Below, piece by piece: positions 1 through 20,748 of a stretch of 20,748 nucleotides of DNA. Below the pieces are notes generated by a model. It searched no databases. It saw only the letters and a program-made list of their open reading frames with translations, and was not told where the DNA came from. The position numbers were made by a program, and so were the translations under genes. Source of the DNA: a virus. Location: positions 1 through 20,748 of the IMG/VR virus record IMGVR_UViG_3300007734_000447, one strand, 5' to 3'. Position 1 is the first letter of the stretch. The number at the start of each line of letters is the position of its first letter.

Positions 1-637
1 TAACCCCACCCTTTTTCATGGGCGCTGGCATTGGCGCAGTTCCCATCGGGGGGCGTGGTTTACCCATTGGAGGACGCGCAGCAGTCGGCATCGGAGTGCG
101 CATACCAGCAGGCATCTGGGGCCGGGGGCCAGAAGGACGAGCAGCCATCAAAGCGGATACTCGGGGATCAACACCGCCGCTAGCCAGCTTCAAGGATGTA
201 CCTGTTCCACCCTTGTGTTCTTGCATGTCGTGCTGCTTGAACGCTTTCTTAATCATAGCCTTGTCTTGAGTTTTATCCGACATGCCACCTTCGGCCATGC
301 CACCCATATTCATCTTCTTCATAGCAGAGTCTTTCATCATCTTGCCATCGGGCATCTTGTGCATACCGTCTTTTTTCTTAGCCATCATTGCCATAAAACC
401 GGGGTTCATCGTAGCCATATCACCACCCCTTGCAAATAGTGCCATCTGACCGTGGTTGGTCTTTGGCTTGTTAATCTTCTGAGCATCGGGCCTGCCACCA
501 GAACCAAACTTACGCCCTTTATCTGCCTTGACAAAATCTTCCCCAACCGATTGCGCTATGCCAGCCTTCTTAGCAAACGCCGGGTTATTAGCTATTGCCG
601 CCATGAAATTATGTTGCTTCTTGCTGCTTGAGGGCAT
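1..637 (-). CDS. Lys/Met/Gly-rich phage protein, 3' end cut by window edge
   Basis: The frame is open from ATG at 637 to the window edge (212 codons visible), so the C-terminus is missing. The N-terminus (MPSSSKKQHNFMAAIANNPA) recalls small phage proteins with an SKxQxxFM start, such as DUF3008, and continues with an AKKxGIxxSVGEDF stretch. The rest is low complexity: many KM, GGM and PPMG units, a FARGG element at residues 68-72, and a Met/Pro-rich tail very like that of the protein at 1345-1992. The start shares its A with the stop of the previous gene (TAATG), and GGTGGAGC lies 5-6 bases upstream, so translation is probably coupled. The function is unknown. Its place at the end of the head module suggests a virion or assembly accessory role, which is inference. 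Confidence 0.75.
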   Translation of the reverse strand, partial: MPSSSKKQHNFMAAIANNPAFAKKAGIAQSVGEDFVKADKGRKFGSGGRPDAQKINKPKTNHGQMALFARGGDMATMNPGFMAMMAKKKDGMHKMPDGKMMKDSAMKKMNMGGMAEGGMSDKTQDKAMIKKAFKQHDMQEHKGGTGTSLKLASGGVDPRVSALMAARPSGPRPQMPAGMRTPMPTAARPPMGKPRPPMGTAPMPAPMKKGGV

Positions 638-876
638 TACTTGCTCCACCAATGAAAGACTTGGGCCAGACCAGCGCCTACCACACTACTTACGCCGCCT
701 AACAGCATCATAGCCCTCCAGCCCCCCTTGGCCTCGGACAGCGTGGATTGGATATCTATCAGCGTTTTCTTGATGTCGTTCATATCCGACATCAGCTTGT
801 CCATGTCCTTTTGCAGATGGTCTATATCTGCGGCATGGGTAGCAAGTTCTCTCGCAGTGGCAACTTCATTAGTCAT
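637..876 (-). CDS. Small coiled-coil protein with C-terminal membrane helix (XhlA/holin-accessory-like architecture)
   Basis: A 79-aa protein. Residues about 5-50 form an amphipathic, heptad-like helix rich in Asp, Lys, Met and Leu. A hydrophobic segment follows at about 54-74 (WRAMMLLGGVSSVVGAGLAQ), ending in an aromatic and basic tail (FHWWSK). A soluble coiled coil followed by one C-terminal transmembrane helix is the layout of XhlA-type lysis accessory proteins and of some small phage membrane proteins. There is no sequence motif that proves a lysis role. It starts 2 bases after the previous stop, and its own stop overlaps the next ATG, so the three genes at 1298-1 look like one translated unit. 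Lysis accessory is the best guess; a membrane-anchored ejection protein is the alternative. Confidence 0.7.
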   Translation of the reverse strand: MTNEVATARELATHAADIDHLQKDMDKLMSDMNDIKKTLIDIQSTLSEAKGGWRAMMLLGGVSSVVGAGLAQVFHWWSK

Positions 877-5120: not shown

Positions 5121-6113
5121 TCAGCTCCTGTTCGTATTCATGCGGTCATATTCTGCGTACTTGCGAATCATTTTATTGCGGTCGGTGATGTTATCCCACC
5201 TACCCGCATCTTTGATCGCCCTTACGCGCTCGGGGGAAACCCGGAATTCGCCAGCGCGATTCCCAGATGTTGCTTCCCTGCCTGAGCTTGTAACCACGGA
5301 ACGAGGCCTCCTAGAGGATGATTTGTCTTCACTACCCCCATTATAATGGTGTGGTAGGTACTTTGTCAATCTATTATCCAACTCCTCCCAGTAATCGGAG
5401 GTCGTCGGATCCCAGCCTTCGGCTACGAGCGCTTCGTCGACTTTTGTCGCCACTTGGCTGTCCATGTCTTTCCCGTTGGGGTCGTACCAGCCATTTCGCG
5501 CCATCCAGTCACCCGCGTGGCGTTTTAGAAGGGGGTCTTGAGCTTTCGGAACCGACGAGCGGGTAGGCTCGCTGACCGCCTTCTTTTTCAGAGCCTCCAA
5601 CGCCTCCACCTGACGCCTCGCGTCGTACCAAGACTCATTCGCCTCGGCCAACGCCGCCCCGTCAGCCATTTCCGTGGCCTCTTTGAGCTTCATCTTGGAG
5701 TATTGGAGTCGCAAATGACCATCTTCAATAGCCTTGTCCAATCGAGCGAGGTCCGAACCCGCCGTTCGCTTCTCCAAGACGGATAAGCGCTCGGCCATCT
5801 GTTCATTCTGACGCTTCAAATTGGTGATCAGATGGGTCGACTCGTTCTGCTTAGCCCTCGAAAGCTTTTTCTTAAGCTGTCGCTCCTCTCGACGGGCTAA
5901 TCGGAGTGATTCTCGGGCTGGATCGGCATGTGGAATATTGTCGGAGTTATCCTCCGGATCATCCGAATCATCCGAGTTGGCTCGACCACCCGTTTTGAAA
6001 CCCTCTTGACCCCCGCCGTCATCCTGCGGGGACTCTCCCTCGGGTAGGGAAACCACGGCAGAACCATCCGGCTCCTCCGCGAGTTGCAAATCTATCTTTT
6101 CAGTCGGATTCAT
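5121..6113 (-). CDS. Probable head scaffolding protein
   Basis: A 330-aa, highly charged protein. An acidic disordered N-terminus (1-65, with SDDSDDPEDNSDN) is followed by long heptad-rich coiled-coil helices (about 66-118 and 120-178). A small folded part contains RNGWYDPNGKDMDSQV, and the C-terminal 65 residues are basic and helical. A helical rod with a basic C-terminus that can bind coat protein is the layout of P22-type scaffolds. Its position between portal and capsid genes agrees. PDGSAVV (15-21) recurs in the portal N-terminus, and FKTGG (39-43) matches a motif in other virion genes. The start overlaps the stop of the GroES-like gene (ATGA). No protease signature is visible. Scaffold is inferred from architecture and synteny. 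Confidence 0.75.
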   Translation of the reverse strand: MNPTEKIDLQLAEEPDGSAVVSLPEGESPQDDGGGQEGFKTGGRANSDDSDDPEDNSDNIPHADPARESLRLARREERQLKKKLSRAKQNESTHLITNLKRQNEQMAERLSVLEKRTAGSDLARLDKAIEDGHLRLQYSKMKLKEATEMADGAALAEANESWYDARRQVEALEALKKKAVSEPTRSSVPKAQDPLLKRHAGDWMARNGWYDPNGKDMDSQVATKVDEALVAEGWDPTTSDYWEELDNRLTKYLPHHYNGGSEDKSSSRRPRSVVTSSGREATSGNRAGEFRVSPERVRAIKDAGRWDNITDRNKMIRKYAEYDRMNTNRS

Positions 6114-6544
6114 AGGAATGCCTTTACTTTCAATGGGTCACCCGTAACTTTTGCAATTACTTCGTGATCGTTAAAAACGCTAAAGAGTGCGGTTTCGCCC
6201 AATGTCTTGTCACCATAGATGACTTCCCATCGGTCTCCACCCCATTTCGGCATACGAACGTAGTCGCCGATTTCCACCCAATTACCCTCGGGCCATGGCT
6301 CGAGTGTGTCGCGCTTCTTGAAAGCTAGCGGGCCAATCGCGATGATTTTTGCCACCTGATTGTTCCACTTTTCGGTTTCCTTAGTCTCCTCGACGAGTAC
6401 AATTCCTGAGCTAGTGACAGTCTTTCGGGTCTGTCTCCACTGGACGAGAATCCGTCCACCTACAGGTAAAGCACCGGGATTAACGTCAGGAAATGCTTCC
6501 CGCAGCGCAGCTTCATTCGAAGCTTCCGGTTTATTATCGCTCAT
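6110..6544 (-). CDS. GroES-like (Cpn10) co-chaperonin
   Basis: A 144-aa protein expected to cap the host GroEL ring and help fold virion proteins, as gp31 does in phage T4. Diagnostic features are PVGGRILVQWRQT (27-39) and a flexible loop ending SGIVL (46-50), equal to the GroEL-binding mobile loop with its hydrophobic tripeptide IVL (48-50). The strand AKIIAIGP (65-72), the segment WVEIGDYVRMPKWGG (89-103) and a C-terminal FSVFNDHEVIAKV strand complete the Cpn10 pattern. It is longer than bacterial GroES (about 95 aa) because of an N-terminal extension and an inserted LEPWPEGN turn. No GroEL gene is present in the window. The stop overlaps the scaffold start, and the N-terminus overlaps the preceding 62-aa gene by 11 bases. 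Confidence 0.85.
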   Translation of the reverse strand: MSDNKPEASNEAALREAFPDVNPGALPVGGRILVQWRQTRKTVTSSGIVLVEETKETEKWNNQVAKIIAIGPLAFKKRDTLEPWPEGNWVEIGDYVRMPKWGGDRWEVIYGDKTLGETALFSVFNDHEVIAKVTGDPLKVKAFL

Positions 6545-9440: not shown

Positions 9441-10658
9441 CTATTCGAAGCCGTACTCGCTGATATCGCGTGCTGTCCGCATCATTTCTCTGTACTTATT
9501 GGGGTCTACGTTGCGGATCTCGCGCAATGGGTCACGCAATGATTGCACCGAACCTTCACCTTCGTGCCTCATCATTTGGCGCAATACCTCGGACGACGGC
9601 AAGCCCTCGCCCTCAATCTCAATAGACGCGGGGTCTTTCATGTGGCGTGCGATTGACTCAATGTCGTACGGCTCGGGCTTTCCACCACGGGTAGACATGG
9701 TGCGCACAAAGTCAATGGCTTCGTCCACACTCATGCCCTTGGACAACGCTAACGCCATGAGGCCTTGCGCGGTAGAAGGTAGCGCGGCGGTTGGGGCAAC
9801 GGCTTTGACCACCTCTCCCACGTTCGGTATCAACCCGGTGGGCAATGCGCCTTGCAACGCTTGACTGACGGCACCCTTGAGCACGGTTCGGCGCGACGTC
9901 GGGGTGGCAGCTACCGATTTCAACGTGGACGCCACTTTACCCGCACCCGGGTCCACCGTCGTCGTTTTCTCCGTCACCGCTGGTGCACCCCGCAGCCCTT
10001 TGTCCATCTCCTGCAGTGCTTTATCGTCGATTTTCGCTAGCGGGAAGTCCATCGGTGGCTGGGCTTTAAGTCCAAACAGCGAGCGGCGGCTCATGTTCGG
10101 GGTCTCGACTTTCACCCCTTTGGCCATTAACTCCGCTGCCATCTGGTCCAACGTCTTCTTCACCCCGCCACCACCCGCGTACAATTGATCGGGTATTAGC
10201 TGCCCGCCGTCGCTCATGTCCGGGGTCGTGTGGTCAACCACCACCCCGCCCTCCGCATAACGTTGGGGCGCTGCCCGCATCTCGTGCCTCGCCGTCGATT
10301 CTGGTGCGAAATCCGCCCGACGCGTGGCAGTCGCCGGGTCGTGCGATTTGCCGCTGCGCTGCTTGAGCATCTCCTGCACCACAAGCCTTCGCAGCACCGG
10401 GTCCGGGAATCGGGACTCGAAATCCTCGACTGCCCTTGCCCTATCGAACTCCGGGTACTCGGTTGGCGGCTCGGCAAAAGCCCGCTGCTTGGCCGATGCT
10501 GCATTGCGCTGCTCGAAGTCCATCTGTGGCCCGGCGTTTGTCTCCCCCGAGTACGCCGCCATTGCGAGCGGTACGGAACTGCGAAACCCCGCGAATAGCG
10601 TGGTCGCGTCGATTGGGTCCATGCCACTCAGGATTTCATCGATCGGGTTACTGGGCAT
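9441..10658 (-). CDS. Unknown 405-aa phage protein with two internal twin-arginine-like motifs
   Basis: A protein of unknown function between large terminase and portal. The N-terminal 120 residues are helical and charged. A Gly-rich stretch follows with RYAEGGVVV (133-141) and LYAGGGGVK (159-167). Two motifs resemble Tat signal cores, SRRSLFGLK (190-198) and SRRTVLKGA (255-263). The second is followed by a mildly hydrophobic Ala/Leu/Gly/Val stretch (264-290). The C-terminus (300-405) is acidic and helical. True Tat signals are N-terminal, so these may mean something else. The start overlaps the terminase stop by 11 bases, so translation is coupled. A virion-internal or ejection protein, or an assembly factor, is possible; no homologue is recognised. 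Confidence 0.75.
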   Translation of the reverse strand: MPSNPIDEILSGMDPIDATTLFAGFRSSVPLAMAAYSGETNAGPQMDFEQRNAASAKQRAFAEPPTEYPEFDRARAVEDFESRFPDPVLRRLVVQEMLKQRSGKSHDPATATRRADFAPESTARHEMRAAPQRYAEGGVVVDHTTPDMSDGGQLIPDQLYAGGGGVKKTLDQMAAELMAKGVKVETPNMSRRSLFGLKAQPPMDFPLAKIDDKALQEMDKGLRGAPAVTEKTTTVDPGAGKVASTLKSVAATPTSRRTVLKGAVSQALQGALPTGLIPNVGEVVKAVAPTAALPSTAQGLMALALSKGMSVDEAIDFVRTMSTRGGKPEPYDIESIARHMKDPASIEIEGEGLPSSEVLRQMMRHEGEGSVQSLRDPLREIRNVDPNKYREMMRTARDISEYGFE

Positions 10659-18429: not shown

Positions 18430-18458
18430 ATTATACCACGGGTAGGTCAATCTGTCAA
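18430..18458 (-). promoter_or_regulatory. Consensus promoter of the three-gene unit
   Basis: Minus strand: TTGACA (18458-18453; 6/6), 17 bp, TATAAT (18435-18430; 6/6), plus extended TGG. The -35 box lies in the last codons of the DUF6378-like gene (Leu-Thr). Confidence 0.9.
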
Positions 18459-18734
18459 TCCCCCTCCTATATCGAACGGCTCCGTGTCTTTCACCCGGTC
18501 CGCCACCAGTTGGGCATACCCGGCTATATCGACCCATGAATCCATGTGGTCCGGATTCCCGTTCAGTATCCGGGACACTTTGTGCATTATCATCTCCAGC
18601 GATTCCCGCTGGTGGGCGTTCAGCCGGGACCAGCCAGCACACCCGCGCACGTACTGCTTCAGCCCCTGCGCTATCTCCCCCTGTGTGGTGAAGTCCCCGT
18701 ACTGCTCGCCCCTCGCGTCGAGGATCTCACGCAT
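18447..18734 (-). CDS. DUF6378-like phage protein
   Basis: It starts MREILDARGEQYGDFTTQGE at ATG 18734, inside the 3' end of the preceding gene (8-base overlap). A longer frame to 18794 is rejected. The patterns AQGLKQYVRGCAGWSRLNAH, QRESLEMIMHKVSRILNGNP and DSWVDIAGYAQLVADRVK are typical of DUF6378, an all-helical family linked to MazG-like nucleotide pyrophosphohydrolases by its helical motifs. Here the acidic catalytic EExxE site is not obvious, so enzyme activity is uncertain. The stop lies within the next promoter region. The function is unknown; a nucleotide-metabolism role is speculative. Confidence 0.75.
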   Translation of the reverse strand: MREILDARGEQYGDFTTQGEIAQGLKQYVRGCAGWSRLNAHQRESLEMIMHKVSRILNGNPDHMDSWVDIAGYAQLVADRVKDTEPFDIGGGLTD

Positions 18735-19962
18735 TTGCAGCCACCAGCCCGCCCGCCTTGTACCGACCCTTGTACCCCTCGGGTGGAGCGCCACGCACCA
18801 TGCTATCGGCTATCTCCTCCGGGGTCTCCCCTTGCAACATCCTCCAAACCGTTTCCTCCGTCGTTAACTGCCGCCCCAAAGTTTGCGGACCAAATGCCCC
18901 TTCGAGCCGACCCGGGTTGGCAATTATCGACGGCTCGGCCACTTGCTGCAGCATCGCCCGATTCGTGGCATCCATATCCCCAAATCTTGGTGAAGCCCGC
19001 GCTCCGGACATTTTGGCGGGACCGTATACCCCAGCGAGTTGGGCCTCTCTCAGCATTAGGTACCCAAGTTGCTGTTCGGGTGTCATATTTAGCACGTCCA
19101 ATGGTCGTGTGTCGACCGCCATCATTCGCATCACCTCCGGACCTGTGTAGCCTCGCATTAAAACGGGTGATCTTGCGCCGGAAAACACCTTCTCCAGATA
19201 ATCAATCTCCGGGTCGGCATCCCTGACTGGTACGCTGAATGCTTGGCTTGAATACCCGCCGCCCGATTCGCTAATTGGTGCGACAAATTTGAGATCCCCA
19301 TGTCCTATACCATGCGAGGCTACATTCCCAAGGCGACGTGGTATATTAACATCGGTCAGTATGTCCGCTGCGTTTCCCGACCCGCTCGCCCGCAGCATAT
19401 CGTACATCGCGGCGTACATCTCTTTCCCTTTGGCGGGTAATCTGTCGTACCATGTCGCTTGTATTGCGCCGCCCCGGGGCTTGACGGACATTGCATCTAT
19501 CCCGTACATACTGGGGAGATTGCCCGTGAATGGCCCATTCACGGCTGCTTGACGCATCCGGTTCTGAATCTCTGCGTTCATTTTCTGGCTAGCCGGAATC
19601 TGTTCCGAGTAAAATCCTAGTCGCGGGCCATAATCACCGGGGTGTAGATTCGTCGGATTTGCTGGAATTTTGCTCTCCGGGTCTAACCTGAGCATTCCCC
19701 TCTGTGGCATTACCCCCGGCCTAGCGCGATCGCCGACAAGTGTACCACGGATTGGCTCGCCCGTTTCCGTCTTGCCGAAGAGCTGGTTGCGGTTGTACTG
19801 GTCAAGCACTTCGTCCCGCGTCATATTGCGTTGTGCTGATCGCAACGCGGGGTCTATGCGCTGCGCACCCGGCAAAGCTGCGATCTCGGTGTGTACCCCG
19901 CCTATACCGCCCAACAGGTCGTTGAATGATACGGGTTTCTTACCTTTAAACCATGCTGGCAT
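18727..19962 (-). CDS. Large unknown phage protein with YKAGG tail
   Basis: A 411-aa protein with no domain I recognise. It is rich in Met, Gly, Pro and Arg (GGVHTEIAALPGAQRIDPAL; NRMRQAAVNGPFTGNLPSMY), with no membrane helix. The DYLEKVFSGARSPVLMRGYT, NMTPEQQLGYLMLREAQLAG and LTTEETVWRMLQGETPEEIA segments look like short helices. It ends YKAGGLVAANA, matching a [FY][KA]xGG motif in four proteins of the head module. ATG 19962 overlaps the deacetylase gene by 17 bases, and GAGGTG lies 5 bases upstream. Size, composition and shared tail suggest a virion or ejected protein, though it lies outside the head module. No confident role. Confidence 0.7.
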   Translation of the reverse strand: MPAWFKGKKPVSFNDLLGGIGGVHTEIAALPGAQRIDPALRSAQRNMTRDEVLDQYNRNQLFGKTETGEPIRGTLVGDRARPGVMPQRGMLRLDPESKIPANPTNLHPGDYGPRLGFYSEQIPASQKMNAEIQNRMRQAAVNGPFTGNLPSMYGIDAMSVKPRGGAIQATWYDRLPAKGKEMYAAMYDMLRASGSGNAADILTDVNIPRRLGNVASHGIGHGDLKFVAPISESGGGYSSQAFSVPVRDADPEIDYLEKVFSGARSPVLMRGYTGPEVMRMMAVDTRPLDVLNMTPEQQLGYLMLREAQLAGVYGPAKMSGARASPRFGDMDATNRAMLQQVAEPSIIANPGRLEGAFGPQTLGRQLTTEETVWRMLQGETPEEIADSMVRGAPPEGYKGRYKAGGLVAANA

Positions 19963-20748
19963 CGTACACCTCGTCTGATATCTTCAGTGTCTGCACATGT
20001 ATATCCACCGTGTCTTGCATTGGATCCGCGTAGCCCCCCGCCAGATTCCACACCACCGGGATCCCTGCCCCCCGTGCCGCAGTGAATATTCCCCTGTCCC
20101 GTGCCGCGAGTCCCTCAAGTGTCAAATATCCCGCCCCGTATGGGTCTTTCTCCCACGCGTCCGCTCCGGCCTGATAGAATATTATACCCGGTTTGTGGTA
20201 CCGAATCAAGCTACGCGCAAATACTTCCCACATCTCGACGTTCCAGCTCGACTGGATGCCCCGCCCCAGACTGGGTCGGGTGATATTGGACACTCGATCT
20301 TGCAGCTCGGCGTAGTGCCTAATTATTTCGTTGGTCCCGTCCCCCTCGTGCCCATCCCCGTCGATGATTACCACCCGACCTATATCGTGTGCCCTCAGCA
20401 CCTTAGCCGCTGCGATCGCCAGCCCGTTGAATGTGCAGTACCCATACCCCTGATCCCAGCTCGCATGGTGGAATCCTTGGGAGGCTGAGCAAGCCACGCC
20501 ACCGTAAACTAGGACGTGCTGCACTGCCGCCCAGAACGACCCGTTCGAGTACCTAAGCGAGTCGTTCAACTGCGCATCGGTATTGCCGAACCCGTTCTGG
20601 GTCGTGCCCTTGAACACCCGATCGACGTACCCCCGGTCGTGCGCTAAGTAGAAATCCTCAATCTCGTAGGGCTTGAACAGGTGCGGGAGCCTGTTGCTCT
20701 GGCGTACGAATTCGGGGATCTTGTTCACCGATATAAAATCGTACTGAA
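19946..20748 (-). CDS. Histone-deacetylase-family amidohydrolase (HDAC / acetylpolyamine amidohydrolase), 5' end cut
   Basis: A zinc amidohydrolase that removes acetyl groups from amines such as acetyl-lysine or acetylpolyamines. Frame is open to the right edge; a GTG at 20728 occurs in frame, but codons before it stay open and fit the fold, so the start is probably outside. Numbering from that GTG: GFHHA (His 87, His 88), DGDGHEGDG with zinc ligands Asp 125 and His 127, QAGAD with zinc ligand Asp 190, and AGGY with the catalytic Tyr 233. All six key residues are present, so it should be active. His 127 is followed by Glu where most HDACs have a second His. The stop overlaps the next gene. 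Substrate cannot be read from sequence; the family is unusual in phages. Confidence 0.88.
   Translation of the reverse strand, partial: QYDFISVNKIPEFVRQSNRLPHLFKPYEIEDFYLAHDRGYVDRVFKGTTQNGFGNTDAQLNDSLRYSNGSFWAAVQHVLVYGGVACSASQGFHHASWDQGYGYCTFNGLAIAAAKVLRAHDIGRVVIIDGDGHEGDGTNEIIRHYAELQDRVSNITRPSLGRGIQSSWNVEMWEVFARSLIRYHKPGIIFYQAGADAWEKDPYGAGYLTLEGLAARDRGIFTAARGAGIPVVWNLAGGYADPMQDTVDIHVQTLKISDEVYDASMV

Follow-up and report, generated by a model that had tools for sequence, protein, structure and literature searches.

The 20,748-base stretch of viral DNA analysed here, referred to as the window, ends in a gene of the histone deacetylase (HDAC) family. The best explanation of this gene, which has roughly even chances of being right, is a phage-borne cassette for reversible acylation. 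The cassette would combine a class IV lysine deacylase with a GNAT-like partner and would be dispensable for the 2-aminoadenine pathway.

In this model, the product of the HDAC-family gene would be a class IV (HDAC11/cluster 5) lysine deacylase, intact and zinc-dependent, which works with the GNAT-like product of the overlapping downstream gene. The partner would move an acyl group from acyl-CoA onto amino groups of a protein, either the host's or the phage's, from which the HDAC-family enzyme would strip it again. During infection, the phage would thereby control both the addition and the removal of an acyl mark. Both proteins would be catalysts, they would share a protein substrate, and their role would lie in host takeover or counter-defence. 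Precedents for phage GNATs that act on host proteins are Rac (PMC7552054) and the GNATs of polyvalent proteins (PMC5512222).

The main clues to the role of the HDAC gene are the predicted GNAT-like fold of the overlapping gene's product and the 2-aminoadenine genome setting. The HDAC gene is an unexplained addition to the gene region of 2-aminoadenine phages, and the pairing suggests that these phages put acyl groups on and take them off during infection. A conserved putative deacylase that is under selection, is tied to a GNAT-like gene and has a natural relative without both makes a directly testable pair.

Features of the putative cassette and its border, in window coordinates
Feature	Position	Strand	Remarks
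HDAC-family zinc amidohydrolase (class IV-like)	19946–20748	minus	266 aa present; PF00850; class IV structures nearest; invariant catalytic residues
Partner gene	18727–19962	minus	411 aa; predicted GNAT acetyltransferase-like fold at residues about 45–240; C-terminal KAGGLV tail
GAGG, Shine-Dalgarno-like	19969–19972	minus	within the final HDAC codons; 6 nt ahead of the partner ATG; read from sequence
Next conserved downstream gene	18447–18794	minus	hits PHROG families labelled phosphofructokinase; flanks the cassette

Catalytic site and enzyme type

Counting from the right-hand end of the window, the HDAC gene comes first. Its frame is open from 19946 to 20746, and the contig edge is reached before any start codon. 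Since the window is the whole IMG/VR record, coordinate 20748 marks the edge of the contig and not the start of the gene. About 13–15 N-terminal codons are missing, as seen from full-length relatives (e.g. MTSTPVFYHPAQEV ahead of SYDFISV).

The window protein matches the Pfam family Hist_deacetyl (PF00850) with an E-value of 1.1e-29 and 104 bits, against a cut-off of 27.9. Searches of NCBIfam and PHROGs with the same protein gave no match. In window numbering, the tandem histidines H93 and H94 belong to the motif GFHHA. The motif DGDGHEGDG holds D129, D131, H133, E134 and D136, while D196 is found in QAGAD and Y239 in AGGY. The zinc ligands (Asp/His/Asp) are D131, H133 and D196, and Y239 is the catalytic tyrosine. 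The preliminary description had proposed a phage-borne deacetylase with a complete catalytic site; the Pfam match above the cut-off and the full set of motifs bear this out.

Conservation was read from an alignment of the window and its phage relatives, comprising 61 distinct sequences and one further row that is a fragment. H93/H94, D129/D131/H133, D196 and Y239 are invariant in all 61, far beyond chance. The dN/dS of the HDAC gene is 0.06–0.26 (Nei-Gojobori, closest pairs). The gene is intact and under purifying selection, and a decayed host gene is excluded on both counts, as had been proposed from the sequence.

The residue after the ligand histidine behaves differently. Position 134 is Tyr in 37 sequences, His in 14, Glu in four and another residue in six. 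Glutamate is found in the window, L052, L059 and L060, which lie on separate branches where they are placed in the tree. Because this residue varies across the family and the Glu sequences are scattered, the earlier idea that HE marks a subgroup had to be given up.

For the enzyme type, a structure model was made on a full-length relative, L009, which is 66% identical to the window protein in the alignment. The alignment used for the model left out sequences from annotated phage records, and the model has a pLDDT of 93.4. Its nearest solved structures are VcHdaH with decanoate (Z 33.7 over 271 residues, 2.3 A), the SAHA complex of VcHdaH (Z 33.6) and Leptospira HDAC11 with dodecenoate (Z 31.6). 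The next enzyme follows at 27.8, and acetylpolyamine amidohydrolase chains reach Z 26.9 at most. Foldseek and a sequence profile both place VcHdaH first (profile against 9gkv, E 3.8e-36).

A second indication comes from the loop before the histidine pair. In nearly all phage relatives it reads SATQGFHH, SASQGFHH or SPTSGFHH, and an RPPxHH-type loop is absent. The RPPxHH-type loop is present in cluster 4, the acetylpolyamine amidohydrolases. Robust deacetylases carry the RPPxHH loop, which narrows the foot pocket; the RPP motif is kept without exception in cluster 1, and every robust deacetylase shown has it (PMC11532494). In cluster 5 enzymes the loop is replaced (SGGYHH in VcHdaH, GGGFHH in HDAC11), and long acyl chains are removed (PMC11532494). 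By sequence and model, the phage clade appears to be of the class IV (HDAC11/cluster 5) type, without the RPP foot-pocket motif. With a SATQGFHH-type loop in place of RPPxHH, a de-fatty-acylase or broad lysine deacylase is likelier than a polyamine deacetylase.

Distribution, genome setting and linkage

HDAC-family matches occur in 9 of 50,697 sequenced phage records. One of them is gp202 of Rhodococcus phage E3, which is already annotated as a putative histone deacetylase. Three weak matches were seen in Staphylococcus phage records, possibly from host DNA in the assembly. Among metagenomic phages, a profile built from four phage sequences finds relatives on at least 282 IMG/VR contigs. This profile was needed, since direct IMG/VR searches with the window's HDAC protein or its partner protein gave no close relative. 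The family had been called rare in phages; this holds for sequenced phages, and it is less rare in metagenomic ones. The best 80 of the contigs were retained for analysis. About 71 of these 80 encode proteins with 51–65% identity to the window's HDAC protein, and nine, some of them from large phages (115–260 kb), have 38–41% identity.

In a quick tree, the window's group, the large-phage group and two huge-phage sequences form one branch (SH-aLRT 98). Bacterial HDACs fall outside this branch, except for one betaproteobacterial MAG contig (L089, 3544 bp) that is nested within it. This contig holds the sole close cellular relative, with 59% identity to L009, adjoining a WYL-domain regulator. Further HDAC relatives of the betaproteobacterial class have 29–37% identity. 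Because L089 is nested in the phage clade, the gene has likely moved between phage and bacterium. A bacterial donor was considered and set aside, as this single near relative lies inside the phage clade.

The window has terminase, portal and capsid genes on the minus strand and is a fragment of a phage lineage of about 57 kb. In relatives with enough sequence, the HDAC gene is preceded by a UvrD-like helicase, a DNA polymerase A of the DpoZ type, PurZ, a MazZ-like pyrophosphohydrolase and a DatZ-like HD phosphohydrolase. This pathway cluster was identified by PHROG and Pfam. The Ser-bearing loop of PurZ reads GSTGKG in all 37 loci matched by the search pattern, which did not catch 21 further PurZ loci. 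A serine in the catalytic loop, in place of the Asp of PurA, has been described for phage PurZ (PMC12884076). In the DNA of this lineage, 2-aminoadenine probably takes the place of adenine.

In many relatives, a small zinc-ribbon protein with an NrdR-like N-terminal domain is found between DatZ and HDAC (e.g. L014:1044-1286). It is possibly a regulator.

The contig ends before the genes upstream of HDAC, so the window is assigned through its terminase. The window terminase is 80–91% identical to those of 15 HDAC-bearing lineage records, 14 of which are 54–59 kb long, and the HDAC-bearing records with a window-like terminase carry PurZ in the loci read. This identity makes a 2-aminoadenine phage the most likely source of the window. 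PurZ was also sought in the large-phage HDAC carriers and rejected there: three have the PurA-type loop GDEGKG, and the search of the others gave no match.

Linkage between the HDAC gene and its partner was counted in those PurZ loci of the lineage in which 2.4 kb or more of sequence follows DatZ. Both genes are present in 48 loci, neither in two, and one alone in none. Likewise, ten loci from other PurZ lineages have neither gene. One of the relatives without the pair is G304 (56,368 bp). Its capsid protein and portal are 91% and 80% identical to those of the window, and a profile search of its whole record found neither the HDAC nor the partner gene. As a control, the partner profile does match records with the partner gene, although sequences used to build the profile are among them.

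The two lineage members without the pair retain DatZ and PurZ. In the G304 locus (L139), DatZ is soon followed by the equivalent of the window's next conserved downstream gene, which normally comes after the pair. Since the pair is gained or lost together and G304 keeps DatZ and PurZ without it, the HDAC and partner genes act like a single cassette that is not required for the 2-aminoadenine pathway. An essential part for the HDAC gene in 2-aminoadenine synthesis is rejected because the other PurZ lineages and G304 are without the gene. Adjacent genes can also be lost together, which counts against reading the linkage as joint function. In phages related more distantly, the HDAC gene occurs with no partner, and therefore the enzyme does not depend on the partner everywhere.

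Between the window and another genome, G275, the two proteins of the pair are 62% and 47% identical, compared with 92% and 84% for capsid and portal. The lower conservation of the pair would fit a role in conflict with hosts.

The partner gene and its fold

The first 17 nt of the partner gene overlap the end of the HDAC gene. Overlaps of 11–119 nt, with start sites as called by script, recur across the lineage. The partner gene has a dN/dS of 0.04–0.25 in the closest pairs.

A GNAT-like pattern was spotted in the partner alignment before the structure result. The AlphaFold2 model has a pLDDT of 87.7 and a pTM of 0.90. Foldseek returned nothing under E 0.001 for it; kinase-like Foldseek rows were discarded, having TM-scores under 0.2 and no counterpart among the VIA rows. 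In a second look with VIA at 650 chains, the 13 best rows are all GNAT-fold chains, with Z 3.0–6.6. They include the ICL2 C-terminal domain (6.6), GNA1 (6.3), GNPNAT1 (6.0), glyphosate acetyltransferase (5.2), HAT1 (4.8) and others.

Searches of Pfam, PHROGs and PDB sequences gave no GNAT match for the partner, and a search of sequenced phages with its protein gave no match. The strict acyl-CoA loop R/Q-x-x-G-x-G/A does not occur in it; only G179 and Y183 are invariant there. Because the best Z of 6.6 is below 8 and the strict motif is absent, a GNAT-like fold is no more than probable, and the case for an active acyltransferase is evenly balanced. The partner may lack activity or be something other than an acyltransferase. 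It resembles a large polyvalent protein distantly (BFVD, E 0.01) and matches Pfam LPD37 weakly (best E 0.007). It may be a virion protein, given this similarity and a KAGG tail that is common to other phage proteins.

Several related observations concern this tail and the partner's length. Relatives' partner proteins end in a similar way, for example in RYKKGGLAHAA. Near the capsid gene, two Lys/Gly-rich proteins (window 2-652 and 1345-1998, minus) have KKGG-type motifs, five of them in the second, and such a motif is also present in a cassette-less relative. This motif might serve as a common docking tag or as a substrate for acylation. Between the terminase and portal genes, window 9441-10658 (minus) encodes a 405-aa protein that resembles the C-terminal part of unusually long partners, those of L074 (882 aa) and L075 (634 aa), which suggests fusions or modular exchange. 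Finally, L036:6791-9608 has two tandem, diverged partner copies after one HDAC gene.

Alternative readings and known systems

The HDAC-family enzyme might instead work on its own, removing acyl or fatty-acyl groups from lysines of host proteins such as RNA polymerase, nucleoid proteins or metabolic enzymes. The partner, a virion or polyvalent-type protein, would then have nothing but the transcript in common with it. Deacylation of host proteins is possible, and the class IV-like placement, the foot pocket and the large-phage relatives with an HDAC gene but no partner are all consistent with an enzyme acting alone. So are the partner's likeness to polyvalent proteins and a KAGG tail like those of other window proteins. 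This reading is nevertheless rather unlikely, since the gene overlap, the joint absence in two relatives and the lack of any discordant lineage locus favour a joint function. The overlapping pair, inherited as a unit, would also suit a toxin–antitoxin-like arrangement, with the GNAT-like protein as poison and the deacylase as enzymatic antidote. GNAT toxins that acetylate aminoacyl-tRNA are known (PMC9177977). Against this, the partner is long and matches no GNAT toxin family in sequence. An enzymatic antitoxin from the HDAC family is not known, and this is the least probable of the readings.

Two further readings give the enzyme a small substrate. An acetylpolyamine amidohydrolase could free polyamines for DNA packaging, as the preliminary description had suggested. 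Functional enzymes of this kind exist in giant viruses (PMC9992855), and the fold is common to both types, as the Z-scores of their chains indicate. But among bacterial enzymes, polyamine deacetylases were confined to cluster 4 (PMC11532494), and the phage family has S-x-[TS]-[QS]-G-F-H-H in place of the RPPxHH loop. Because the nearest solved enzymes are class IV de-fatty-acylases, closer by 5–7 Z units, and RPP is absent, the polyamine reading is disfavoured and judged very unlikely. Still less probable is a small-molecule or nucleotide amidohydrolase within the 2-aminoadenine nucleotide pathway. In the lineage, the gene does follow PurZ, MazZ and DatZ in the same direction. However, the ten PurZ loci from other lineages and the two lineage members that keep DatZ and PurZ are without it, and a 2026 study on 2-aminoadenine phage enzymes (PMC12884076) leaves it unmentioned.

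Phage genes of the deacetylase family have already been annotated; the phage clade, the pairing and the genome location appear to be unreported. In mainly open-access literature, no paper was found that describes a phage deacylase in a pair with a GNAT or in 2-aminoadenine phages. Nor did the literature searched describe a phage system for both placing an acyl mark and taking it off. Rac of phiKMV-like phages and the polyvalent-protein GNATs are thought to modify host proteins, and the papers on them mention no deacylase partner. The partner here differs in being a divergent GNAT-like protein without sequence support.

The nearest solved structures have the same catalytic site as the phage enzyme. 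They are VcHdaH of Vibrio cholerae (cluster 5b, PDB 9GKV/9GKY) and the Leptospira HDAC11-type enzyme (9GZ5), both bacterial, to which the phage enzyme is about 28% and 21% identical. The foot-pocket loop lacks RPP in VcHdaH (SGGYHH) as in the phage enzyme (SASQGFHH). VcHdaH is a measured lysine de-decanoylase.

Other viral members of the superfamily are more distant in setting. Rhodococcus phage E3 gp202 belongs to the same Pfam family, with 36% identity, but its 142 kb genome has other neighbours, no PurA/PurZ-family match and no partner gene found. The acetylpolyamine amidohydrolases of Tupanvirus and Klosneuvirus, whose activity has been shown (PMC9992855), come from viruses of eukaryotes and were found by similarity to a bacterial acetylpolyamine amidohydrolase. 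Unlike them, the phage HDAC family apparently falls closest to class IV, and its loop is without RPP.

The PurZ/MazZ/DatZ/DpoZ phages phiVC8, SH-Ab 15497 and S-2L have pathway genes in common with the window's relatives, including the PurZ serine (GSTGKG). None of the PurZ-bearing isolates listed is among the HDAC-family matches in the same sequenced-phage collection, and the window's lineage is separate from phages of these types. Elsewhere in the window, a GroES-like co-chaperonin (6110-6544, minus) adjoins the head genes; Caulobacter phage RW and MW202545 have one annotated at the corresponding position.
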